Shown piece by piece: positions 1-44,238 of a stretch of DNA of 64,000 bases; within the stretch, counting starts at the first letter, position 1; each line of letters starts with the position of its first letter. This stretch comes from Leeia aquatica. GTDB lineage: Bacteria; Pseudomonadota; Gammaproteobacteria; Burkholderiales; Leeiaceae. A model generated the notes under the pieces. That model had not been told where the DNA came from. It did not search any database and saw nothing but the letters and a program-made list of their open reading frames with translations. The translations under genes were made by a program, and so were the position numbers. Location of the stretch: contig NZ_JABAIM010000002.1 of NCBI RefSeq assembly GCF_012641365.1, forward strand, positions 372,001 through 436,000, in the 5' to 3' direction.

Positions 1-364
1 GTTCCGTGAGTGGCGTACCGTTGGGATCAATCAGGAGAAAAGTTGATATGCGTTCCCGTCCGGCATTCCGCCCGACGGGACGCGACTCCCCGTCAGCGGA
101 GAAGTCGTTTTTTAGGTTTCAACCCAAGGCCGCACAGGTCCGACACCGCCAGCGGGGCGGTAGAACAAGGCAAGAAAGCACGCAGCATGGCCATGACAAG
201 GTCACATTCAGGTTGAGCGCTTATCATCCAATAAAGCCGCCAGCCTGACAAGCGCCAAATCAGCCAACGGAAGAAAGACTCCGCCATGCCCCGTGAGTAT
301 GGACTCCCACGAGTGTTAACATGACAAGCGACTGAAACAGACTTTCCTACATCGGACCACGCGC
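1..364. other. left-edge non-coding stretch
   Basis: No convincing gene is seen in the first 364 bases. The short open frames here have no family resemblance, no good ribosome binding site and overlap one another. The only interpretable element is a terminator-like hairpin at 83-113, which probably closes a plus-strand gene lying to the left of the window. A second imperfect stem pairs GCGTTCCCGTC (51-61) with GACGGGACGC. Bases 114-364 hold nothing I recognise. Confidence 0.5.
83..113 (+). terminator. intrinsic terminator of an off-window gene
   Basis: CGACT at 83-87 pairs with AGTCG at 103-107, with further inner C/G pairing, and six T residues follow at 108-113. The T run is on the plus strand, so it would end a transcript entering from the left edge. 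Confidence 0.55.
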
Positions 365-1303
365 ATGCTGCAACATTTCCCCGGTACCTGGAGCTTCCCC
401 GCCAGCTGGCACAGTCTGGGCGAATTGAGCCGCTATGGTTCTCTGCCCGGTTGGGTCAAACTTTGGCGAGCGGTCTCGATCCTGCTGTTGCCGGGCGCTG
501 GTTTTCTGGCTTATCTCTGGCCGCAACCTGTGATCTGGCTCGGCTGTAGCCTGATGGTGCTGCTGTTGCTGCTGAGCTGGCTCTGGCTGGCGACCGCCCC
601 ACGCCGCGAGATGTTGCGCTATCTGCAGGAAGGCGGGCTGGCGCCGCTGAGTGAACGCCAAAGGCGTGCGCTGCAACCCAATATCGTGCATTGCTACAAC
701 CGGGGCTGGTGGATAGAGACGCTGGAAATGTGGCCCTGCAGCCACCGTCTGCACCACACGCGCGGCTACTGGCTGCTGGACATCGAAGCCGAACCTGCTT
801 GCTCACGCAGCTCACTGAAAAGCGACTGGGATATTGAAAGCCGCGAAGACTACTTGCAGATGTTTGACCGACTGCGGCAAGGTCTGCATACGCAGTACCT
901 GCTGAGCCCGGATGCCAGTGCAGCCTACGTGAATTTGACCGACGAACTCGCCTGGCTGACACAAAGTGACCCCAAGCGGGTAGCCCGCCTTTGGCAAGAA
1001 CAAGACGGCAAACCCGCGCATCTGATCTGGGGTTTCGATCTGTGGCGCGCCAGCAATATGGCCCGCATGGCCTGGCAAGCCCAGTACATCAGCGAAGCGG
1101 AAGCCTGGGCACATATTGAAGCCGTAGCCGAACAGATTTTCCAGCGCTTTGCCTCGCTGGATGAGTTCTTTTTCAGTTACCTGGTGGGCTTCGCCTTCTG
1201 GAACCGGGACAAAGCGGAGTGTGAAGAGAGAGTCAGTTTCTATACCGTCTTTGTCCGCCAATGCCACTGGCCACGCGCCAAAACCTTATGGGGCTGGCAA
1301 TAA
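365..1303 (+). CDS. DUF1266 family membrane-anchored protein
   Basis: Predicted 312-residue protein. Two adjacent hydrophobic segments around residues 35-72 suggest a membrane hairpin, followed by a basic stretch (APRRE) and a soluble C-terminal domain. The segment around residues 220-245 (WGFDLWRASNMARMAW, then an acidic SEAEAW) matches the signature of the DUF1266 family as I know it; that family has no established biochemical function. No strong Shine-Dalgarno precedes the ATG, so the exact start is uncertain. It ends 4 bases before a convergent gene. The DUF1266 assignment rests on that motif only. Confidence 0.7.
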   Translation: MLQHFPGTWSFPASWHSLGELSRYGSLPGWVKLWRAVSILLLPGAGFLAYLWPQPVIWLGCSLMVLLLLLSWLWLATAPRREMLRYLQEGGLAPLSERQRRALQPNIVHCYNRGWWIETLEMWPCSHRLHHTRGYWLLDIEAEPACSRSSLKSDWDIESREDYLQMFDRLRQGLHTQYLLSPDASAAYVNLTDELAWLTQSDPKRVARLWQEQDGKPAHLIWGFDLWRASNMARMAWQAQYISEAEAWAHIEAVAEQIFQRFASLDEFFFSYLVGFAFWNRDKAECEERVSFYTVFVRQCHWPRAKTLWGWQ

Positions 1304-1307
1304 CGTC

Positions 1308-1787
1308 TCAGAACAAGGAGGCCTGCCGTGGCGCCTCTGCCGGGGCTCGCTTCTGCTGAGGTGTCAAATGGGTGACGGCCAGGCCATAGCGCCGCTGGAT
1401 GGCGTCCGCCACCATGGAACGGTGGCACATGTGCGGGTCCGCCTCATAGCACAGCAATACACTGGGCGAAGCCTGCGCAACACGCGCCAGTGCCGCAAGC
1501 GGCTCATGCTGAGACTCCAGCCAGCTACAGAAATCCCGCGTATACCGCCCCCAGTCATCGTCTTCACGGTAGCGCATGCGGATCGGGCGTGGGCAGCCCA
1601 ACTCGGACATCGGCTGATACTGCACCCCAGCCGCCTCCAGCCAATCAGCCATACTCGCACCAGAGAAACCTGGCTTGCGGGAAAAGGGCGATTCTCGGAC
1701 ATCCACCAGTGTTTGCACGCCGTGCTGCTGCAGGCATGCGGCAAAGGCAGGGGCCGTCAAACCTTCATAACCGATGGTGTACAGCAT
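1308..1787 (-). CDS. DUF488 family protein
   Basis: A 159-residue soluble protein. The N-terminal YTIGYEG and DVRESPFSRKPGF motifs and the C-terminal CYEADPHMCHRS motif are the hallmark of the DUF488 family, found in many bacteria but without a settled reaction; the conserved Cys/His residues suggest a metal or catalytic site. Two ATGs are adjacent (1790 and 1787). AAGGA sits 6 bases before the second one and only 3 before the first, so 1787 is preferred. It is convergent with the DUF1266 gene and appears to be a single-gene transcript. Confidence 0.85.
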   Translation of the reverse strand: MLYTIGYEGLTAPAFAACLQQHGVQTLVDVRESPFSRKPGFSGASMADWLEAAGVQYQPMSELGCPRPIRMRYREDDDWGRYTRDFCSWLESQHEPLAALARVAQASPSVLLCYEADPHMCHRSMVADAIQRRYGLAVTHLTPQQKRAPAEAPRQASLF

Positions 1788-1974
1788 CATGTGTCCTTGC
1801 CCGTCCTAGCCTGCGCATGGCAGCATGTTGTCATGACTGCGCGGAGGCAGCAAGGTTCCCACCTGTACTCCTGACCCACACTATTCCCGCTTCTCTTTTG
1901 GAGATGGGCGTTTAATCACGCGGACTAGACCTCCATGCAAAGGAGGGGGCTATGTGTTTTTCCCTCTACCAGTC

Positions 1975-2937
1975 TCAAGCAGAACCAGGCTCATGCTCCA
2001 ACGCCAGTGATGAAAAATATGCCTTCAACGCAGCCACTGCGATACGAACCTTGGCGGGTTCTACGTCGCGCCTCGCCGTCAGCATGGCTAAAGGGTACGA
2101 CGGCAGTCTCAGTTGGGGTAACACCCTGACAAGATGCCCTTGTTCAAGGGCGTGACGGACATCCGCATAGAAGAGCCTTGCGATACCCATGCCTTGTTCG
2201 CACATCTGCCGCAACGCGATCTGATTGCTTGTTGTAGTGCGGGTCTGGAGGGGGATCAGTTCCTTTCTCCCATGATCATCCACTGTCTCCAGTATGAAGT
2301 TCGGTAGGGGAGCCCCCCCGTCAGGGAAGGCAGCCTCTGCTGTAACTTCTTGCACTTCTCGCATCAGGGCCAGCCAGTGATGTCGCTGTAGATCTAGCGA
2401 CGACTTTGGACTGCCGTGACGTTCCAGATACGCCGGAGCGGCACATAGCACTGTGTCCATCTGCCCAAGCTTTCGAGCGATCCAGGTAGAGTCAGGCAGC
2501 TCGCCAACTCGCAGAGCGATGTCGATCCGCGAGCTGATCAGGTCGATCAGCACATCATCGACGATCAGGCTCATCCGCAGTAGAGGCCATTGTGTCAAAA
2601 CAGGTGCCAGCGCTGGGGCAATATGGTTGCCGAAGCCAAGGGGAGCTGCGATTCGCAACTCACCAACCGGCGCATCCCGGGCCTGCTCCAGCGATGCAGC
2701 TGCCGCACGCCCGGCTTCGAGCAAACGAAGACAGTGTGGGTAGCAGCGCTCGCCAGCCTCGGTGAGCGCAATCTTCCGCGTCGAACGATGCAGCAACGCG
2801 ACGCCAGCTCGTTGCTCCATCCCACGCACGATCTGACTAACGGCGGAGGGCGTCATTCCGAGGCGCTTCGCAGCTGCGCTCATCGAACTTGCGTGAACAA
2901 CCTCTGCGAAAACCGCATAGGGCTTGTACTCGTCCAT
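1975..2937 (-). CDS. LysR-family transcriptional regulator
   Basis: A 320-residue LysR-type regulator. The N-terminal winged helix-turn-helix covers about residues 1-60 (AAAKRLGMTPSAVSQIVRGME, then RSTRKIALTEAGE), followed by a periplasmic-binding-protein-like effector domain. GGAG lies 6 bases before the ATG. It is divergent from the DsbA-fold / NAD(P)-binding / MFS genes beginning at 3046, the classic arrangement of a LysR regulator with its target operon, so it probably controls them from the 108-base intergenic region. The effector is unknown. Confidence 0.93.
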   Translation of the reverse strand: MDEYKPYAVFAEVVHASSMSAAAKRLGMTPSAVSQIVRGMEQRAGVALLHRSTRKIALTEAGERCYPHCLRLLEAGRAAAASLEQARDAPVGELRIAAPLGFGNHIAPALAPVLTQWPLLRMSLIVDDVLIDLISSRIDIALRVGELPDSTWIARKLGQMDTVLCAAPAYLERHGSPKSSLDLQRHHWLALMREVQEVTAEAAFPDGGAPLPNFILETVDDHGRKELIPLQTRTTTSNQIALRQMCEQGMGIARLFYADVRHALEQGHLVRVLPQLRLPSYPLAMLTARRDVEPAKVRIAVAALKAYFSSLALEHEPGSA

Positions 2938-3045
2938 TCATTACTCCAATTTAACAATGATTGAATCTTACACCACCTTACGGCACGACTAAGAATTACA
3001 GATAATAAATCATCCAATTTCAGACAAAGATATGAAGAGACCGGA

Positions 3046-3741
3046 ATGAAGCCTGATATGAATGATCCGCTACTGCACTACGTCTACGATCCGCTCTGCG
3101 GCTGGTGCTATGCCGCCTCCCCTCTTGTCAAGGCGGCCGTCGCTAACGGCATCGGCATTAAGTTGCATGGCGGTGGGTTATGGGGGATACCAACCTCTCT
3201 GGTAGCAGAGAAACGTAGCCACATCCAGATGAACGATCAGCGTATCGCCGAACTCACGGGCTTGCCATTTGAACCGGCATATCTCAACAAGCTGTTGGAC
3301 GATCCCGCAACCATCTTCTGGTCTCACCCCACTATTGCCGCTGTCCTTGCAGCCGGCGCGCTACGCAACGGCGCTGACCTTGACATGCTGCACGCCATCC
3401 AGACTGGGCACTATGTCCAAGGCCGCAAGGTCGTTGAAGAAGGTGTGCTAGCGAACCTGGCCATCCAGATAGGTCTGGCGGCAGACGACTTCGCCACCAC
3501 AATCCGAAACATTCACGTTGCCGAACACATCCACAACAGTCGCCACCTGATGACGCTGCATGGAATCAAAGGCTTTCCAGGCTTTGTCCTCGAACACGAG
3601 GGCAGGTTCACACGCGTCAGGCACGAGCGCTTCTACGGCAATCCCGAAGCATTCGCGACAGAACTTCGCACCATTACCAAATTGACTTTGGAAAAAGCTG
3701 GAAGCGACCAGCCCACGGGATCGACCACTTCTCTCGCATGA
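3046..3741 (+). CDS. DsbA-fold thioredoxin-like oxidoreductase
   Basis: A 231-residue protein with a thioredoxin-type CGWC site at residues 18-21 directly after the first beta strand (LHYVYDPLCGWCY). This is typical of cytoplasmic DsbA-family proteins (FrnE / 2-hydroxychromene-carboxylate isomerase relatives). No signal peptide is present, so it should act in the cytoplasm rather than as periplasmic DsbA. It is the first gene of a plus-strand set with an NAD(P)-binding protein and an MFS exporter, opposite a LysR regulator. Together they look like a small electrophile or drug response module; substrate unknown. Confidence 0.85.
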   Translation: MKPDMNDPLLHYVYDPLCGWCYAASPLVKAAVANGIGIKLHGGGLWGIPTSLVAEKRSHIQMNDQRIAELTGLPFEPAYLNKLLDDPATIFWSHPTIAAVLAAGALRNGADLDMLHAIQTGHYVQGRKVVEEGVLANLAIQIGLAADDFATTIRNIHVAEHIHNSRHLMTLHGIKGFPGFVLEHEGRFTRVRHERFYGNPEAFATELRTITKLTLEKAGSDQPTGSTTSLA

Positions 3742-3768
3742 ACATCCCCCATCAAACATCAACCCATG

Positions 3769-3774
3769 AAGGAG
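3769..3774 (+). promoter_or_regulatory. Shine-Dalgarno that fixes a GTG start
   Basis: AAGGAG lies 6 bases upstream of GTG 3781. An in-frame ATG at 3766 overlaps this ribosome binding site and so cannot use it. The GTG is therefore the better start for the NAD(P)-binding protein. Confidence 0.75.
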
Positions 3775-3780
3775 TTTTCC

Positions 3781-4404
3781 GTGAAAATCGCATTGATCGG
3801 CGCCACCGGCTACGTAGGATCGAAACTGCTACCCGAAGCACTGGCCCGCGGCCATCACATCACCGCCATTGCCAAGAACCCCGAGACGCTACCGCAGCAT
3901 GAACTGCTTACCAGCCTCTGTGCTGATGTGACGGACACACATGCCTTGTCCGAATGCCTGACCGGCCACGATCAGGTCATCAGCGCCTTCAACCCCGGTA
4001 CCGACCCCTTCGGCAGTGGTGTGCGTGCGCTGATCGCCGGCGTCAAGAAGGCAGGGATTTCACGCTTTCTCACAGTAGGCGGTGCGGGTTCGCTGCGCTT
4101 GCCTTCCGGTGGGCGCGTAATCGACCAGCCGGACTTCCCTGCAGAGTGGAAGGCCGGAGCATTGCTGACGATCGCCTTTCTCGATCTGCTGCACACCGAG
4201 AAGGAACTGGACTGGGTGTTCCTCAGCCCATCGGCTTTGCTGGTCCCTGGTGAGCGTACCGGTAAATACCGCGTCGGCAAGGATGACCTGTTGATCGACG
4301 CTGATGGCAAAAGCCACATCTCACTGGAGGACTACGCGGTAGCGATGCTGGATGAAGCCGAGAAACCTCAGCATCACCGTGAGCGCTTCACTGTCGGCTA
4401 TTAA
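3781..4404 (+). CDS. NAD(P)-binding (NmrA/SDR-like) protein
   Basis: A 207-residue Rossmann-fold protein opening MKIALIGATGYVGSK, with the GxxGxxG dinucleotide-binding glycines at residues 7-13. The family is the atypical SDR/NmrA-like NAD(P)H-binding group (YwnB/YesF-like), which acts as redox sensors or flavin/quinone reductases. The C-terminal part keeps the LLHTEKELDWVFLSPS segment seen in these proteins. Start chosen as GTG 3781 because of the AAGGAG at 3769. It lies 39 bases after the DsbA-fold gene and 41 before the MFS gene, so probably one transcript. Confidence 0.85.
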   Translation: MKIALIGATGYVGSKLLPEALARGHHITAIAKNPETLPQHELLTSLCADVTDTHALSECLTGHDQVISAFNPGTDPFGSGVRALIAGVKKAGISRFLTVGGAGSLRLPSGGRVIDQPDFPAEWKAGALLTIAFLDLLHTEKELDWVFLSPSALLVPGERTGKYRVGKDDLLIDADGKSHISLEDYAVAMLDEAEKPQHHRERFTVGY

Positions 4405-4445
4405 GCCCTCTGTATCGCCACCCAACCCAGACCAGAGATCACCAC

Positions 4446-5654
4446 ATGGCCATTTACAAGAAAGATATCGTACCAAACAGCCCTATCCGTTCAAGCTCTT
4501 GGCTTGCACATGTCGTACTTGCACTCGGTGGTTTCGCCATCGGAACCACCGAGTTCGCGACGATGAGCTTCTTGCCAGCGTTTACCGCTGAGCTGGGTGT
4601 CGATGCCCCTGCGGGGGGTCATGTGGTCAGTGCCTACGCGCTGGGCGTGGTCATCGGTGCGCCAGTGCTAGCCGTACTGGGTGCGCGCCTTGAACGCAGG
4701 TTGCTGCTCGTTCTGCTGCAGCTGTGGTTTGCAACAGGCAATATTCTGAGTGCGATGGCGCCGAGCCTGCAGGCGCTCATGATCCTGCGCTTCGTAACAG
4801 CGATTCCGCACGGCGCCTATTTCGGGATCGCTGTTTTGGCAGCAGCAAACATGGTTACTGAGCAGAGGCGAGGCAATGCCGTGGGTCGCGTACTCATGGG
4901 CCTGGCATTGGCAACAGTGGTCGGCGTACCGCTTGCTAACCTGCTCGCACAGGGGCTAGGCTGGCGTAGCGGATTTGTCGCCATCGGCTTGGTTTCACTG
5001 CTGGTCGTTGGAATGCTTTTACGCGTCATGCCTATTCAAATGCCGTCTGCAGGTGCTTCAGCCCTCCGTGAGTTGGGCGCACTCCATCGCTCTCAAGTGT
5101 GGTTGACCTTGGGCATTGGGGCAGTAGGTTTTGGTGGATTATTTGCTGTCTACACCTATCTTGCATCGACGCTTCACGAAGTGACGAAAGCAACTGACGG
5201 TGCCATAGCGATCGTACTGGCGGTATTCGGAGCAGGAATGGCATGTGGTAATCTTGCTGCACCGTATCTGGCACGATTCGGCGTCATGCGTGCTGCAGGC
5301 TTGCTGCTGACGTGGAGCGCACTGGCACTGGCTCTTTACCCGCTGACAATATCCCATGTTTGGTCAATCGCGCTCGCCGTGTTCGCTATCGGCTGCGGTG
5401 GCGGACTTGGGGCCATCCTTCAAATGCGACTCATGGAGGTGGCTGGTGACGCGCAAAACTTGGCTGCCTCTCTGAATCATGCGGCTTTCAATGTCGCAAA
5501 TGCGCTCGGGCCATGGCTAGGGGGTGTAGCACTCAATATGGGTCTGGGTTGGACATCGACGGGTTGGGTCGGTTGTGCCCTGGCACTGGCCGGGATTGCA
5601 GTATGGTTCGTTACGTTATCAGTCCAAAGGGGGGCTTATCCAACCGCCACCTGA
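4446..5654 (+). CDS. MFS efflux transporter (DHA1/AraJ-like)
   Basis: A 402-residue protein with about 12 hydrophobic helices. The N-terminal IGTTEFATMSFLP motif and the GARLERR loop are typical of the drug:H+ antiporter-1 group related to AraJ, YdhP and sugar-efflux proteins. It is the last gene of the LysR-linked module and would export the compound the module responds to. Its final two codons (ACC TGA) fall inside the 151-bp direct repeat that begins at 5648, so the native C-terminus may have been replaced at the repeat junction. Confidence 0.9.
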   Translation: MAIYKKDIVPNSPIRSSSWLAHVVLALGGFAIGTTEFATMSFLPAFTAELGVDAPAGGHVVSAYALGVVIGAPVLAVLGARLERRLLLVLLQLWFATGNILSAMAPSLQALMILRFVTAIPHGAYFGIAVLAAANMVTEQRRGNAVGRVLMGLALATVVGVPLANLLAQGLGWRSGFVAIGLVSLLVVGMLLRVMPIQMPSAGASALRELGALHRSQVWLTLGIGAVGFGGLFAVYTYLASTLHEVTKATDGAIAIVLAVFGAGMACGNLAAPYLARFGVMRAAGLLLTWSALALALYPLTISHVWSIALAVFAIGCGGGLGAILQMRLMEVAGDAQNLAASLNHAAFNVANALGPWLGGVALNMGLGWTSTGWVGCALALAGIAVWFVTLSVQRGAYPTAT

Positions 5655-5798
5655 TCATGCCAGCCAAACGATTCAGGGGCACGGCACTGTAAGCTTGAGT
5701 GGCTTGACTGAAACGGACTGATTCGCAATGAAAAAGACTATTTTCAACGCAGATGGGCTCACGCTGTTACAAGAGGGTGAACAATATGACGTCACCTA
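5648..5798 (+). repeat. 151-bp direct repeat, copy 1
   Basis: Aligns without gaps to 22245-22395 (offset 16597) with 6 mismatches, all at or before 5687. Bases 5688-5798 are identical to copy 2. The left part corresponds to the last codons of the small gene at 22026-22289 (CCTGATCATGCCAGCC, then a TAA at 5690-5692). The right part holds the start of a second small gene, ATG 5728. There are no inverted-repeat ends or transposase, so it is not an obvious insertion sequence. Confidence 0.93.
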
Positions 5799-5823
5799 CG
5801 ATGCAGGTGCTAATCAGGGGTAG
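5728..5823 (+). pseudogene. 31-codon small gene or truncated remnant
   Basis: Opens MKKTIFNADGLTLLQEG, continues 8 codons beyond the repeat and stops at TAG 5821. The first 23 residues are identical to the frame at 22325 in repeat copy 2. A 31-residue product with no hydrophobic segment is short for a complete protein, and the two copies diverge in the middle of the frame, so I read it as the 5' end of a gene cut by rearrangement. I do not recognise the family. A genuine small protein cannot be excluded. Confidence 0.4.
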
Positions 5824-6018
5824 AAGTTCAGGTATAGCCTGACGGTGGCTGTGTCAGTAATGTTGTGTTCAAGGCAGTTTGAGTCATCACACAGAAGGCC
5901 GAACAAATCTATCCTGATAGAAGAATCGCGCATTGATTTATGGCAGCCCTCCAATCCTTTTCCCAGTCTTTTGCTCTCCGCTCATATACGTTCCAAGCTT
6001 GTCATTCCAATTCAAAAC
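5824..6018. other. intergenic stretch after repeat copy 1
   Basis: AT-richer than its surroundings. The frame of the small remnant stays open after its TAG stop and runs to 6111, but it crosses the terminator at 6019-6052 and the DUF3460 gene and shows no recognisable protein, so I do not call it. Nothing else is recognised. Confidence 0.4.
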
Positions 6019-6052
6019 AAAAAGGGCCAGTCCGTTGCCGGTGGCCCTTTTT
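6019..6052 (-). terminator. intrinsic terminator of the DUF3460 gene
   Basis: AAAAAGGGCCA (6019-6029) pairs perfectly with TGGCCCTTTTT (6042-6052). Read on the minus strand, the stem is followed by TTTTTGTTTTG, the expected U-rich tract, 23 bases after the stop codon of the gene at 6075. The A/T-flanked stem could also stop plus-strand transcripts. Confidence 0.85.
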
Positions 6053-6074
6053 GTTGTGCAACCAGGTCAGACGT

Positions 6075-6290
6075 TTACAGGTCGACCTTTTTCTTCGGTG
6101 CGCCGCTGTAGACGTAGCCTTGATAATAGTAGCCGTTCTGCTTGACCTTGGCTTCCGTGGCGCCCTGTTCAAAGGTCGCATCGACCGGCTTGTCCCACCA
6201 TACGGCGCGGCGCTCCAGGCGCTCGGCAGCCACTTGTGGATTTTGTTCCAGATAGCGGTTGATGAAGTCGGTGAATTCGGATTGATACAT
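6075..6290 (-). CDS. DUF3460 family small protein
   Basis: A 71-residue soluble protein opening MYQSEFTDFINRYLEQNP, with a central WWDKPVD motif. This is the pattern of DUF3460, small proteins known mainly from beta-proteobacteria and of unknown function. The ATG at 6290 was chosen because the family begins MYQSEF and an AGGTG lies upstream; longer in-frame versions add an unrelated N-terminus. It lies 124 bases beyond sucD with a hairpin between them and its own terminator behind it, so probably a separate transcript. Confidence 0.85.
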   Translation of the reverse strand: MYQSEFTDFINRYLEQNPQVAAERLERRAVWWDKPVDATFEQGATEAKVKQNGYYYQGYVYSGAPKKKVDL

Positions 6291-6360
6291 GGTGGGCACC
6301 TGCTCATATTCAATGGCTGCATTATAGCGGTTTGGCTGCGGGCTGGACACCGCTACACAG

Positions 6361-6390
6361 CACAACGCCACCCCGAGGGGTGGCGTTGTG
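6361..6390 (-). terminator. hairpin at the end of the suc operon
   Basis: CACAACGCCACCCC (6361-6374) and GGGGTGGCGTTGTG (6377-6390) form a perfect 14-bp palindrome about 24 bases after the sucD stop. No U tract follows on the minus strand, so it may act as an mRNA 3' stabiliser or a factor-assisted terminator. Confidence 0.6.
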
Positions 6391-6413
6391 GCGAGCTCAG
6401 CTGCAGTACAGAC

Positions 6414-7301
6414 TTACTTCAGCATGCCCTTGGCCTTCAACACTTCCACCATGGTGCTGCCCAGTTCGGCCGGGCTGCGGGTGTAAGCGATGCCCGCCTT
6501 CTCGAAGGCAGCAAACTTCTCTTCTGCGGTACCCTTGCCACCGGAGATGATGGCACCGGCGTGGCCCATGCGCTTGCCCTTCGGCGCGGTCACACCGGCG
6601 ATATAGCCCACGATCGGCTTGGTGACGTGTGCCTTGGCGTACTCGGCGGCTTCTTCTTCCGCCGAGCCACCGATTTCACCGATCATGATGATGGCGTCGG
6701 TATCCGGATCATCCTGGAACAGGCGCAGCGCGTCGATGTGGCTGGTGCCCGGGATCGGGTCGCCGCCGATGCCGATGCAGGTGGATTGGCCCAGACCGGC
6801 AGCGGTGGTTTGTGCCACGGCTTCATAGGTCAGGGTACCGGAACGGGAGACGATGCCGATGCGGCCCGGCTTGTGGATGTGCCACGGCATGATGCCGATC
6901 TTGCACTCGCCCGGGGTGATGATGCCGGGGCAGTTCGGCCCGATCAGACGTGCACCGGAGCTTTCCACATAGCGCTTCACTTTCAGCATGTCCAGGGTCG
7001 GCACGCCTTCGGTAATGCACACCACCAGCTTCACGCCGGAATCCACGGCTTCCACGATGGAATCCATGGCAAACGCGGCCGGCACGTAGATCACCGAGGC
7101 ATCGGCCTGGGTTTCACGCACGGCTTCCTTCATGGTGTTGAACACCGGCAGGCCCAGATGCTGGCTGCCGCCCTTGCCCGGCGTCACGCCGCCAACCACC
7201 TTGGTGCCGACCTTCAGCGCCTGCTCGGCGTGGAAGGTACCGTTCTTGCCGGTGAAGCCTTGCACCAGAATCTTGGTGTCTTTATTGACCAAAACGCTCA
7301 T
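6414..7301 (-). CDS. sucD: succinyl-CoA synthetase alpha subunit
   Basis: 295 residues, the normal length. It pairs with SucC to convert succinyl-CoA, ADP (or GDP) and phosphate into succinate, CoA and nucleoside triphosphate in the TCA cycle. Visible features are the N-terminal CoA-binding Rossmann domain ([15 protein letters not shown]), the GPNCPGI segment and the phosphohistidine loop [10 protein letters not shown] around residue 246. An AAGG-containing ribosome site precedes the ATG. It starts 30 bases after sucC and is the last gene of the TCA operon. Confidence 0.98.
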
Positions 7302-21470: not shown

Positions 21471-21491
21471 GCCGACCGCTTCCGGTCACGA

Positions 21492-21523
21492 AAACAGGCG
21501 GGCATGTCCCGCCTGTTTTTTTT
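21492..21523 (+). terminator. intrinsic terminator of mdh
   Basis: AAACAGGCGGG (21492-21502) pairs with CCCGCCTGTTT (21508-21518) and a run of T residues follows. It lies 21 bases after the mdh stop. Confidence 0.93.
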
Positions 21524-21688
21524 GGGTATATTGGTCACATAACCTGCTGCCCTCTTGCTCACCAGCGATTAAAGGGATGAGGGTTTAATGAGCGTGGCGA
21601 TTAGAAGTGTGTGGGAGCCGTCGCTTCAGTCAACTGCTCCAAAATCTTTTTGCATCTGCTAGAGAAAATTATAAAAAGAAGGGGTGGC

Positions 21689-21877
21689 ATGAAAAAAATC
21701 CTGTGCATGATATTTTCAATATTAGCAATTTCATTACTGATCGTTTTTCTGCCACAGGTCATTTCAGGGCAAGCCAGCCTGAGTATGACGCTATTTACTC
21801 TGATTTCCCTACCCTATGGCGCTTACCTGTTTGGCTACTACGCCTTGTATGAGAAGCTTCCTTTTAGAAGAGATTAG
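21689..21877 (+). CDS. small two-helix membrane protein
   Basis: 62 residues beginning MKKILCMIFSILAISLLIVFLP, with two hydrophobic helices (about 3-22 and 30-52) and a short charged tail. The GGGGTG before the ATG is an acceptable ribosome site. Base composition is clearly AT-richer than mdh and prpR on either side, as for the rest of the 21.5-22.65 kb island. No family is recognised. Genes like this often accompany immunity proteins of polymorphic toxin systems, but that is context-based inference only. Confidence 0.55.
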   Translation: MKKILCMIFSILAISLLIVFLPQVISGQASLSMTLFTLISLPYGAYLFGYYALYEKLPFRRD

Positions 21878-21992
21878 CTGCTGGGTCCCGTATGAATATC
21901 AGCTTGCAGATGGACTAGACGCCTTGCATGATGCTATCACGGCTATACCTGAGCACCATCCGGGTATGCAGATTTGGGCAGAACAGGCTTAA
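21849..21992 (+). CDS. 47-residue acidic small protein
   Basis: Opens MRSFLLEEISCWVPYEYQ and ends IWAEQA, overlapping the end of the membrane protein by 29 bases in another frame. The composition (several W, Y, E, D; balanced hydrophobics) looks protein-like rather than a random shadow frame, and the stop lies 33 bases before the next gene's ATG. It may be a genuine small cistron or the C-terminal half of a broken gene. Family unknown. Confidence 0.35.
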   Translation: MRSFLLEEISCWVPYEYQLADGLDALHDAITAIPEHHPGMQIWAEQA

Positions 21993-22025
21993 TATGTCGA
22001 CGAGGTGCTACTCAGGAGCAGAGGG

Positions 22026-22289
22026 ATGAAGTTTGTAGATAAGCGCATTTTCAAAGGAGAACGCTTTTCAATTGGTATAGAAGCGACAACGGGGCGGTCT
22101 TATTTAGCCATTCCAGTCGCAAATTCTTTGGTGGAATACGAGGAATACTATGAGATTGATCAAGCGCTCGTAGAGGACTGTGCAAACAATCTGGAAGCGC
22201 TGCTGGAAATTGCTCGCTTGTGCAGAACCCGTCAGTTTGATCATCACCTGATCATGCCAGCCGGGCGGCTCAGGGGCACGGCATTGTAA
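22026..22289 (+). CDS. small soluble protein, possible orphan immunity protein
   Basis: 87 residues from ATG 22026, with AGGAG 7 bases upstream. The YLAIPVANSLVEYEEYYEI core resembles a family of small hypothetical proteins I associate with immunity or effector clusters; I cannot name it with certainty. The last 15 codons (from the end of RQFDHH onward) fall in the 151-bp repeat, and a matching tail without its gene body lies downstream of the MFS gene near 5655-5692. Confidence 0.6.
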   Translation: MKFVDKRIFKGERFSIGIEATTGRSYLAIPVANSLVEYEEYYEIDQALVEDCANNLEALLEIARLCRTRQFDHHLIMPAGRLRGTAL

Positions 22290-22395
22290 GCTTGAGTGGC
22301 TTGACTGAAACGGACTGATTCGCAATGAAAAAGACTATTTTCAACGCAGATGGGCTCACGCTGTTACAAGAGGGTGAACAATATGACGTCACCTA
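22245..22395 (+). repeat. 151-bp direct repeat, copy 2
   Basis: Gap-free match to 5648-5798 in the same orientation, with 6 mismatches clustered in the left third and the last 111 bp identical. This copy overlaps the 3' end of the gene at 22026-22289, the start of the truncated frame at 22325 and the start codon of the gene at 22383. The two copies bracket about 16.4 kb containing the whole TCA block and mdh. Confidence 0.93.
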
Positions 22396-22396
22396 A
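22325..22396 (+). pseudogene. truncated 23-codon frame in repeat copy 2
   Basis: The same first 23 residues as the frame at 5728 (MKKTIFNADGLTLLQEG and on), but a TAA completed by the first base beyond the repeat stops it at 22394-22396. The repeat boundary therefore truncates the gene. Its ribosome site and ATG lie within the repeat. Confidence 0.45.
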
Positions 22397-22646
22397 AGCG
22401 TTTACGTCGTCGGATGCTGAAATCTGGAAAGCCAAGCTTGGCGCCTATTCCTCAGTGAGTAAACTACTCCGCGACCTTGCTGAGCACTATGGTTTATCAA
22501 GAAATGATGCCGCTGTACTACTTTATGAACTCTTCGATGGCTTTTCGCTGGACGATATTAGCTATGTGTGGAAGTGGGATTATGTGGGGAGTGGCCGAGG
22601 GATTTCAGATCAACACCTTGACCAGCAGCTTGGGCACTTGTTATAG
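22383..22646 (+). CDS. small helical protein at the repeat junction
   Basis: 87 residues starting MTSPKAFTSSDAEIWKAKLG at an ATG inside the repeat, preceded by GAGGGTG at a good distance. The sequence predicts mostly helices (VSKLLRDLAEHYGLSRNDAAVLLYELF), resembling a small regulatory or immunity-type protein. Only its first four codons derive from the repeat; the rest is unique to this locus. It overlaps the truncated frame at 22325. Family not recognised. Confidence 0.55.
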   Translation: MTSPKAFTSSDAEIWKAKLGAYSSVSKLLRDLAEHYGLSRNDAAVLLYELFDGFSLDDISYVWKWDYVGSGRGISDQHLDQQLGHLL

Positions 22647-22719
22647 AATTTTAACAAGCTACTACCTGAACCAATTTGCTGCATCCCCGGCCAGCGTGCA
22701 TTTCTCACTACCGTAGCCA

Positions 22720-42430: not shown

Positions 42431-44238
42431 TGCGTACTCCCTGTTTGTACACGCTGCTGAAAGCGCGGCCACCAGAAACGAAACTCCGCGCCCCGCCCTT
42501 CACCGGCGACACCGGTATGCACTTCAATCCGTCCGCCGTGGCTCTCCACCAGCCGACGGGTAATGGCCAGCCCGATGCCTGAGCCTTGCCGGGCCGAGGC
42601 AGAGGCGGTCTGAAACAGCATGAAAATACGTTCCAGACTGGCCTCAGGGATGCCTGGCCCATCATCTGCCAGGCGGAAACAGCAGTAGGCGTCTTCCTCC
42701 GTCACCCGTAAGCGAAGGTGTCCTTGTGACCGGTCATGGTGTTTGATGGCATTGCTGATCAAGTTGCGCAGCACCGTTTCCAGCGGGGTGCGTGCGCCCG
42801 GAAACGGACTGACGCGGATATCCCGCTCCAGCACAAAGCCCTCAGGTATGGGGCTCATCTCCAGAATATTGTCCAGCAATGCCTGGGGATCAACCAGTAC
42901 CAGCTCGGTACTGGCTTTGCCGGCCCGCGCATAGGTCAGCAAGTCATCAATCACCCGCCCCATACGTGCCACCCGGCTGCGTATGCGCTCCAGATTGTTG
43001 CCCAGTTTGTCGTATTCGCCGGCTTGCAGGTCCTCCTGCATCCACTCTGCCAAGTCTCCAATACCTTGCAGGGGGGAGCGCAGGTCATGCGAGGCCACGT
43101 AGGTGAATTGCTCCAGATGGGCATTGGCTTGCCGCAATGAATCCTCAACCCGCTTGCGGGCTGAGATATCGGTGACCACCGCCATCACCATCTGCTGACC
43201 ATCCCACACCAGCGGCGCCAGGCCGACTTCCACCGGAAACTCGCTGCCATCGCGGTGTCGCCCCATCAGGTCACGCCCCATGCCCATGCGGTGATGCCGA
43301 GGCGCACGGCTGTACGCGGTACGCAAGGGAGGGTGCCCCGCCACATGGCGTTCCGGAATCAGGATTTCGACGGCTTGCCCGAGCAGCTCGTCGGTTCGGT
43401 AGCCAAACGCCTGCGCCACCAGATGGTTCAGGAAGCGGATGCAGCCATCCTGGCTGACCACCAGCACCCCATAGGGCGCAGCCTGTACCAGGTCACGGAA
43501 AGAGTGCTCAATCTTGCGCCGCTCGCTGATGTCCACCACCGAGGCCAGCACCCCCTGCCCAGAAGGGGTCTGCACGGGGGCCAGACCGATTTCCAGCGGA
43601 AACTCGCTGCCATCGGCACGGCGCCCAAACAGCTCGCGCCCCACCCCCATGCGGCGTGCCTCAGGCTGGACGGAGTACATGGTGCGCATGCCTGCATGTC
43701 CATTGCGATAGCGTTCAGGCAGCAACACTTCAATCAACTGCCCGGTCAGGCTGCCGGCTTCGAAACCAAACATGGTCTCGATCGCCGGGTTGGCTTGCAG
43801 GATATGACCACCGTCATCCACCAGCAGCAAGCCCACCGGAGCAGCCGCCAGCATAGGGTCGGCCCAGCCTTGCCGGGGCGCAGCTTGCGGCAAGGCCATC
43901 AGCAAAACCTGCTGGCCCGCCTGCTCTCCCATCCGGGCGGTTAGGCACAAATTTGGTGCCCCGGCCAGGCTGAGCTGCACATTGCCCTGACTATCCGGTT
44001 CACTCAACGCACTGATGAAGTCAGCCCGCGAATGGCCGGGGCCTACCGGGATACCCAAGGATGCCAGCCATTCACGCAACGGGGCGTTCAGATAGCACAC
44101 TTGTGCTTCATCCAGCACCAACACCCCTTGGGTCAGCTGATCGGTAACCCACTGCAATGCAGGGGAACATACCGTCCCGACTTGATTGTGTTCCAAAGCA
44201 TGGCTCCTTGCGGATCCACAGGCTAAACCGGCCTGCAT
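42427..44238 (-). CDS. PAS-domain sensor histidine kinase
   Basis: A 603-residue cytoplasmic kinase without transmembrane helices. After a degenerate N-terminal segment, two very similar PAS domains follow (about 128-245 and 250-370), each with an LPERYRNGH / IPERHVAGH-type helix and a GRRADGSEFPLEIGLAP / GRHRDGSEFPVEVGLAP block, indicating internal duplication. Then come a HisKA domain (SHDLRSPLQGI, phosphorylated His) and an ATPase domain (NLISNAIKHHD, DDGPGIPEA, GSGIGLAI). The first ATG lacks a ribosome site, so the start is uncertain. Confidence 0.93.
   Translation of the reverse strand: MQAGLACGSARSHALEHNQVGTVCSPALQWVTDQLTQGVLVLDEAQVCYLNAPLREWLASLGIPVGPGHSRADFISALSEPDSQGNVQLSLAGAPNLCLTARMGEQAGQQVLLMALPQAAPRQGWADPMLAAAPVGLLLVDDGGHILQANPAIETMFGFEAGSLTGQLIEVLLPERYRNGHAGMRTMYSVQPEARRMGVGRELFGRRADGSEFPLEIGLAPVQTPSGQGVLASVVDISERRKIEHSFRDLVQAAPYGVLVVSQDGCIRFLNHLVAQAFGYRTDELLGQAVEILIPERHVAGHPPLRTAYSRAPRHHRMGMGRDLMGRHRDGSEFPVEVGLAPLVWDGQQMVMAVVTDISARKRVEDSLRQANAHLEQFTYVASHDLRSPLQGIGDLAEWMQEDLQAGEYDKLGNNLERIRSRVARMGRVIDDLLTYARAGKASTELVLVDPQALLDNILEMSPIPEGFVLERDIRVSPFPGARTPLETVLRNLISNAIKHHDRSQGHLRLRVTEEDAYCCFRLADDGPGIPEASLERIFMLFQTASASARQGSGIGLAITRRLVESHGGRIEVHTGVAGEGRGAEFRFWWPRFQQRVQTGSTQ

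Follow-up and report, generated by a model that had tools for sequence, protein, structure and literature searches.

Vibrio cholerae carries arrays of orphan immunity genes, which form by effector displacement (PMC5361080). Protection against a foreign NADase was demonstrated in Serratia marcescens Db10 for 2280, an orphan NADase immunity protein; 2280 shares 88% identity with RhsI1 of strain SJC1036, a 124-aa protein reported to have a fold unlike those of other NADase immunity proteins (PMC10539506). The tandem immunity paralogues esaG and tipC recombine via short conserved blocks, located at the 5′ and 3′ ends in tipC, and give rise to mosaics (PMC9484751). On the toxin side, Tne5 of the Tne5-Tni5 system, reported in May 2026, has 4KT6 as its best DALI match (Z 13.1, rmsd 2.6) and is carried by PAAR, Rhs, CDI-type and type VII (LXG) proteins (PMC13285283). 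The founding Tne5 toxin is the C-terminal domain of a Pluralibacter Rhs protein, for which a Lys and a Glu are noted, and the Tni5 protein named in that report is AVR02353.

Here we studied a 151-bp direct repeat in a 64,000-nt window of the Leeia aquatica genome (the whole stretch of DNA that was analyzed), for which the original prediction had proposed cassette exchange among small genes, with recombination at the repeat. The reading that we favor, at a probability of about 0.84, is that an orphan gene pair, ImmA-ImmB, whose relatives lie behind NAD-glycohydrolase-like toxin domains, is present in two copies truncated in different ways, and that the repeat is the part which they share. The features concerned are listed in Table 1.

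Table 1. Features at the two repeat copies and their surroundings (window coordinates).
Feature	Position	Strand	Basis or remark
Repeat copy 1	5648..5798	+	Gap-free match to copy 2; overlap of ImmA and ImmB remnants
Repeat copy 2	22245..22395	+	Gap-free match to copy 1
MFS transporter gene, stop codon inside repeat copy 1	4446..5654	+	Homologues
Copy 1 ImmA remnant, last 14 codons (HLIMPAKRFRGTAL) and stop, joined to MFS gene 3′ end	5648..5692	+	
Copy 1 ImmB codons 1-30; homology stops at Q30, then G and stop	5728..5817	+	HMM E 5.4e-7, model positions 1-30
Low-GC island between malate/lactate dehydrogenase-family gene and sigma-54 regulator gene	21473..22719	.	
62-aa peptide, hydrophobic by reading, same low-GC island	21689..21877	+	
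ImmA, complete orphan immunity gene, 87 aa	22026..22289	+	Homology; relatives behind toxins
Copy 2 ImmB codons 1-23, then TAA at junction	22325..22396	+	HMM E 0.018, model positions 1-22
87-aa ORF, family unknown	22383..22646	+	ATG and possible Shine-Dalgarno (by reading) from ImmB remnant

The repeat itself is as it had been described. The two copies are 96% identical without any gap, at a spacing of 16,597 bp, and in a search of the 3.56-Mb, 13-contig L. aquatica genome the second copy was returned with 246 bits and an E-value of 4.7e-66, far beyond chance. The six mismatches, all of them transitions, lie in the left third as claimed, at repeat positions 19, 20, 21, 24, 25 and 40, three of them forming one codon, and positions 41-151 (111 bp) do not differ at all between the copies. 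Outside the repeat the resemblance ends abruptly, the 30-bp flanks of the two copies being unrelated (6/30 and 7/30 identical). The description of the reading frames was likewise right. Each copy joins the 3′ end of one small gene to the 5′ start of another; in copy 1 the frame overruns the repeat by seven codons (DAGANQG) and a stop beyond the edge-spanning codon, and in copy 2 a TAA (22394-22396) falls at the edge, with an 87-codon frame starting from an ATG inside the repeat. Since short exact repeats can confuse assemblers, an assembly artefact had to be considered, but the six base differences, the four different flanks and the location of both copies on one 755-kb contig of the 13-contig assembly make it extremely improbable.

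For the complete small gene at copy 2, ImmA, a scan of genome contigs with a four-sequence alignment gave 265 pattern stretches and 91 relatives, of which the 80 best-scoring were kept; they occupy 79 distinct loci, to which all locus counts below refer. Among 57 ImmA sequences, residues R83 and G84, which the repeat encodes, do not vary, and at least 90% have G80, where the copy 1 remnant has a K. At 38 of the 79 loci, an ORF of 100 aa or more on the same strand has its end between -8 and 60 nt before ImmA, and 25 of these 38 close upstream ORFs have one C-terminal domain in common, with gaps to ImmA of -4 to 26 nt. By tblastn, this toxin domain was found before ImmA over at least 130 aa at 26 of the 79 loci, over 40-129 aa at 4 and over less than 40 aa at 4, and was undetected at 45. 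Pfam analysis of ten upstream proteins identified DUF6861 in three of them and WXG100_2, PAAR, PAAR together with Rhs, Rhs and a sub-threshold DUF637 in one each, and returned nothing for two. The domain before ImmA is carried by PAAR, Rhs, WXG100, DUF6861 and hemagglutinin-type proteins; in Rahnella, for instance, the ImmA relative starts 9 nt after a hemagglutinin-repeat gene whose end matches the toxin domain. Such neighborhoods are typical of polymorphic toxins, in which a single toxin domain is accompanied by the matching immunity gene. Because no adjoining toxin was detected at 45 of the 79 loci, immunity is deduced from the toxin-bearing ones, and these make protection against the adjoining toxin the most likely role of ImmA, as judged from gene neighborhoods.

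ImmA is rare in the order, where it was found in L. aquatica and in one other genome among 349; for a further ImmA gene of the order (L126), the 3.3 kb of its locus matched neither the toxin nor ImmB. A plasmid protein search with ImmA matched 9 of 72,556 records. A phage origin was also considered and rejected, as none of the 21 pattern stretches in viral contigs was confirmed as ImmA. The predicted ImmA fold has no close match among solved structures (best Z 4.1), which does not show that the fold is new. Six loci (L032, L041, L095, L100, L102 and L107) are immunity arrays, with two or three ImmA paralogues each within 12 kb at most, at 30-47% identity to the ImmA of the window, and on the Pseudomonas aeruginosa plasmid Rms163 (L009, 6001-6261) an ImmA relative contains an in-frame stop. 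The loci at which tblastn detected only the tail of a toxin domain before ImmA are L030, L044, L080 and L096, and those with a partial domain are L061, L066, L073 and L090. All eight may represent steps on the way from a functional pair to an immunity gene without its toxin.

The nature of the toxin domain was addressed by modeling, from an alignment of 25 sequences (pLDDT 93.1). The modeled domain next to ImmA has an ART-like fold nearest to the streptococcal NAD+ glycohydrolase: its best structural match by VIA-align is the Streptococcus pyogenes enzyme 4kt6 (Z 12.7, rmsd 2.7), over 147 of 155 residues, the next family having a Z of 6.0 among 999 chains aligned. With Foldseek alone, the streptococcal protein (7wvh) came second (E 0.011), behind MbcT, a toxin of NAD-degrading type (E 0.0053). 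The toxin profile had two matches among the sequences of solved structures, at E 0.5-0.7 and not meaningful, and the NADase resemblance came from the fold search only. The same structure is the best match of Tne5, at closely similar scores, and the carriers are similar as well (PAAR, Rhs and CDI-type), with WXG100-type proteins here versus LXG proteins there (PMC13285283). The likeness to the Tne5-Tni5 system is thus one of fold and carriers, and of such a pair the L. aquatica genome has the immunity side only. On the strength of the model, the domain next to ImmA is likely NAD-glycohydrolase-like and a member of Tne5. DUF6861 stands N-terminal to the toxin domain at four loci (L033, L038, L064 and L125, the latter in genome G744), once before an Rhs shell. 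We found no mention of DUF6861 in the open-licence papers searched; a trafficking function in polymorphic toxins is possible for this domain.

Among 399 genomes of the order, the toxin domain was found in five; the genes behind the toxin were read for these matches apart from two of them (L116 and L117). No toxin of the family was found in L. aquatica or its congeners (G000, G001 and G002) with a 17-toxin profile at E-values up to 1. The profile search works, since genome G035 was matched, and because it found no such toxin in L. aquatica, ImmA and ImmB are orphan immunity genes there. For ImmA, both sides of this assignment were observed, i.e. relatives directly behind a polymorphic toxin and no cognate toxin in the same genome. 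The predicted role of ImmA resembles that of 2280, which stands alone as well and confers immunity to an NAD(P) glycohydrolase domain of foreign origin. However, the toxin countered by 2280 is TNT-like (proposed Tne4), whereas the domain adjoining ImmA relatives is nearest to the streptococcal enzyme, and ImmA has 87 aa against the 124 aa of RhsI1 (PMC10539506).

The frame that starts in copy 1 reads MKKTIFNADGLTLLQEGEQYDVTYDAGANQ and belongs to the second family, ImmB. An HMM built from two foreign ImmB proteins (of G744 and G035) was searched against all 1625 window frames that run from stop to stop over 20 residues or more, and matched only the two remnants. The match of the copy 2 remnant falls below the HMMER inclusion threshold, this shorter remnant not being significant alone. 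Both remnants are homologous, at the E-values of Table 1, to small genes found directly behind toxins of subtype B. The clearest case is a 1601-aa DUF6861-Rhs protein ending in this sister subtype of the domain, with a 77-aa ImmB 9 nt behind it (G744/L118). In 300 genomes of the order, two weak ImmB matches were found besides L. aquatica (E 0.0047 and 0.094), the better of which is a 78-aa gene 11 nt after a toxin-domain fragment of subtype B (G035/L109). A weaker case of the same kind is found in Nitrospirillum (L049, E 0.16, 11 nt). Plasmid searches gave one short match with the 30-aa ImmB sequence (E 0.3) and none with the 78-aa ImmB of L109. The 78-aa protein had no match at E 0.001 in 369 genomes of the class, a result which shows little, because the remnants of L. 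aquatica, listed among those genomes, also missed this limit.

How do the two families come to lie side by side? In a genome of the same order but of another family (G743/L115), toxin A is followed after 10 nt by ImmA and, 32 nt further, by an ImmB with a frameshift. The gap between ImmA and ImmB is 35 nt in both window copies, a similar spacing, so the repeat spans a gene junction that is seen elsewhere, the toxin-ImmA-ImmB order having been met in one other genome only. Insertion of a new pair before an older immunity gene, as in the V. cholerae arrays, would give this very order, and both there and here immunity genes stand without their toxin (PMC5361080). In V. cholerae the arrays are found where T6SS clusters end (3′ side), whereas the genes studied here sit beside core metabolic genes and are mostly broken.

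The arrangement in L115 could also mean that ImmA and ImmB neutralise the same toxin and that the pair is kept for that purpose, by analogy with Tdi5a and Tdi5b, two unrelated immunity proteins of the single toxin Tde5 (PMC13392607). Such a dual role would be compatible with a truncation origin of the repeat, and the order and spacing in L115 speak for it. However, in L118 and L109 the toxin before ImmB is of subtype B, and the neighboring ORFs that were read include no ImmA. Moreover, ImmB has a frameshift in L115 and is cut short in the two window copies, and therefore is not being kept there. We regard a dual role as unlikely.

The flanks indicate how the two copies differ. In copy 2 the left side is native, with the whole 87-aa ImmA, and the right side is new; in copy 1 the right side is native for six codons past the repeat, and the left side is new. 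One side of each copy was thus never a junction, as ImmB and ImmA simply continue there in their native form. The two ends of the repeat are explained by one truncation point each, in ImmA and in ImmB, and the repeat looks like a by-product of truncation. The earlier reading of small and partly broken genes at the repeat is supported.

Alternatively, such a stretch could have undergone a single segmental duplication in recent times, with template switching at replication as one possible mechanism, and all later differences would reflect decay. The 111 bp without any difference would agree with it, even though ImmB is truncated in both copies. Nevertheless, six changes spread evenly over 151 bp would all fall within some 22 bp with a probability of only ~2e-4, and three of them affect a single codon. 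Furthermore, copy 1 has six extra ImmB codons (to 5817) and copy 2 the whole ImmA, and as each thus holds native sequence that the other lacks, neither of them, in its present form, can have given rise to the other in full. A single duplication thus appears doubtful. The clustered mismatches rather suggest a mosaic made by recombination, and immunity genes are a class known to be shuffled. In esaG and tipC, too, short conserved blocks in immunity genes recombine and give mosaics, but among many tandem paralogues, whereas here there are two remnants of a gene pair 16.6 kb apart (PMC9484751).

This clustering, together with the different genes to the right of each copy, also speaks for the cassette exchange of the original prediction, the repeat then being a recombination site for swapping small genes in and out. 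We looked for a general counterpart at 77 of the 79 ImmA loci, two being dropped for short flanks. A direct repeat of at least 50 bp overlaps the 300 bp behind ImmA at 14 of the 77 loci (e.g. L050 and L089), versus 7.0 expected from random windows (P 0.002), while the two 300-bp bins before the ImmA end have repeats at 3/77 and 4/77. The excess behind ImmA is weak support for cassette exchange, because the eight bins located 900-3000 nt upstream reach 7-12 of 72-77 loci. At most, the borders of the ImmA module seem somewhat repeat-rich, as exchange would need, and this says nothing direct about the window repeat. More specific observations run against exchange. Multiple copies were expected under shuffling, but nucleotide searches returned two copies in the L. 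aquatica genome, with no third reported, no match in the congeners G001 and G002, and, among 99 other genomes, three with 19-48-bp matches of 35.6 bits, none of which is a copy of the repeat; a plasmid search with the 151 bp gave no copies either. Native sequence borders copy 1 on the right (ImmB, six codons) and copy 2 on the left (ImmA), and between the copies lie core metabolic genes, collinear in the congeners, and no cassette. Of the earlier proposal, recombination is retained, on account of the mismatches; the cassette and its dedicated recombination site are not, there being two copies only with ends that correspond to two truncations, and we consider them quite unlikely.

Under the truncation reading, the two copies came to lie on either side of a block of core genes. 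The block between them is, by ORF reading, a TCA-cycle cluster from sucD to malate dehydrogenase, and is collinear in G001 and G002. Site 1 is a synteny break: window positions 1-6420 have no congener DNA match except 6106-6290 in G001, and the genes beside sucD in the congeners sit on another contig (C1) in L. aquatica. A reciprocal breakpoint was sought on C1; among the genes listed there (by reading, CBS-domain, LysR-type and others) none is immunity-like. The MFS gene to the left of copy 1 ends on a TGA within the repeat, and in three homologues, retrieved from among 465 matching plasmid records, the C-terminus extends further by about 8, 9 and 14 aa. This fits a cut of the MFS gene at copy 1 but does not prove it, because such tails vary. 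The MFS protein resembles Cmx/CmrA efflux proteins, scoring 236 against 400 bits, well below the curated cut-off.

Site 2 stands out by composition, two 600-bp windows of this 1.2-kb stretch having a GC content of 0.447 and 0.515 versus 0.62 to the left and 0.69 to the right of it. Pfam was used to check two genes here, the malate/lactate dehydrogenase-type gene that closes the block and the sigma-54 regulator gene that follows; the corresponding gap of the congeners holds other genes by ORF reading (mutarotase, Lrp, ctlX-like and astA-like). The full 87-aa ORF has no match in 368 other genomes, and a plasmid search with its 85-aa shorter form was empty. The 62-aa peptide is possibly another immunity-type gene; neither it nor a 37-aa C-terminal fragment (~21880-21992) has plasmid relatives. 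One could imagine that broken immunity genes serve as raw material, the ImmB remnant having given a ribosome binding site and a start to the 87-aa gene, and the ImmA-ImmB junction being a recurrent short homology patch through which immunity genes reach housekeeping regions at a distance from all secretion loci, but we hold this to be very improbable.

The exclusion of a transposon by the original prediction agrees with the ORFs read at both sites, none of which is a transposase; Pfam and NCBIfam likewise detected no transposase in ImmA, in the shorter form of the 87-aa ORF or in the 62-aa peptide. The window contains no tRNA, which argues against a tRNA-targeted integrative element, and positions 3000-25000 have no Rfam match at gathering score that would indicate a structured RNA. 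An inverted-repeat search of each site alone found a terminator-like hairpin (6013-6058) and a 12-nt hairpin (21491-21519). A 12-nt inverted pair of 92% identity (21622/22301) has one arm inside copy 2, not at its ends, and is probably due to chance. Elsewhere in the window a second direct repeat is present, of 112 bp and 72% identity (43214-43325 and 43577-43688, 363 bp apart).

The following history may account for these observations. Following the published displacement model, an incoming toxin A-ImmA pair would have displaced toxin B and left ImmB behind. The ImmA-ImmB stretch would then have reached both sides of the TCA-cycle genes, via ectopic recombination or by two acquisitions. Copy 1 would have been cut inside ImmA, where it was joined to the MFS gene, as well as inside ImmB, and copy 2 inside ImmB only. 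Copy 1 would now be dead DNA, whereas the intact ImmA of copy 2 could still protect against foreign toxins by binding and blocking them.

In conclusion, the repeat is real and its cause is of an ordinary kind. ImmA and ImmB represent two small immunity families located behind an NADase-like toxin domain on several kinds of carriers. For the members scanned, no Pfam or NCBIfam model came up at its curated cut-off and no PADLOC model at E 0.01, and small hypothetical genes of similar size could be annotated from them. A repeat can arise as the mere overlap of two different truncations, which should be checked before a recombination site is named. What was an unexplained repeat becomes a readable fossil of bacterial warfare.
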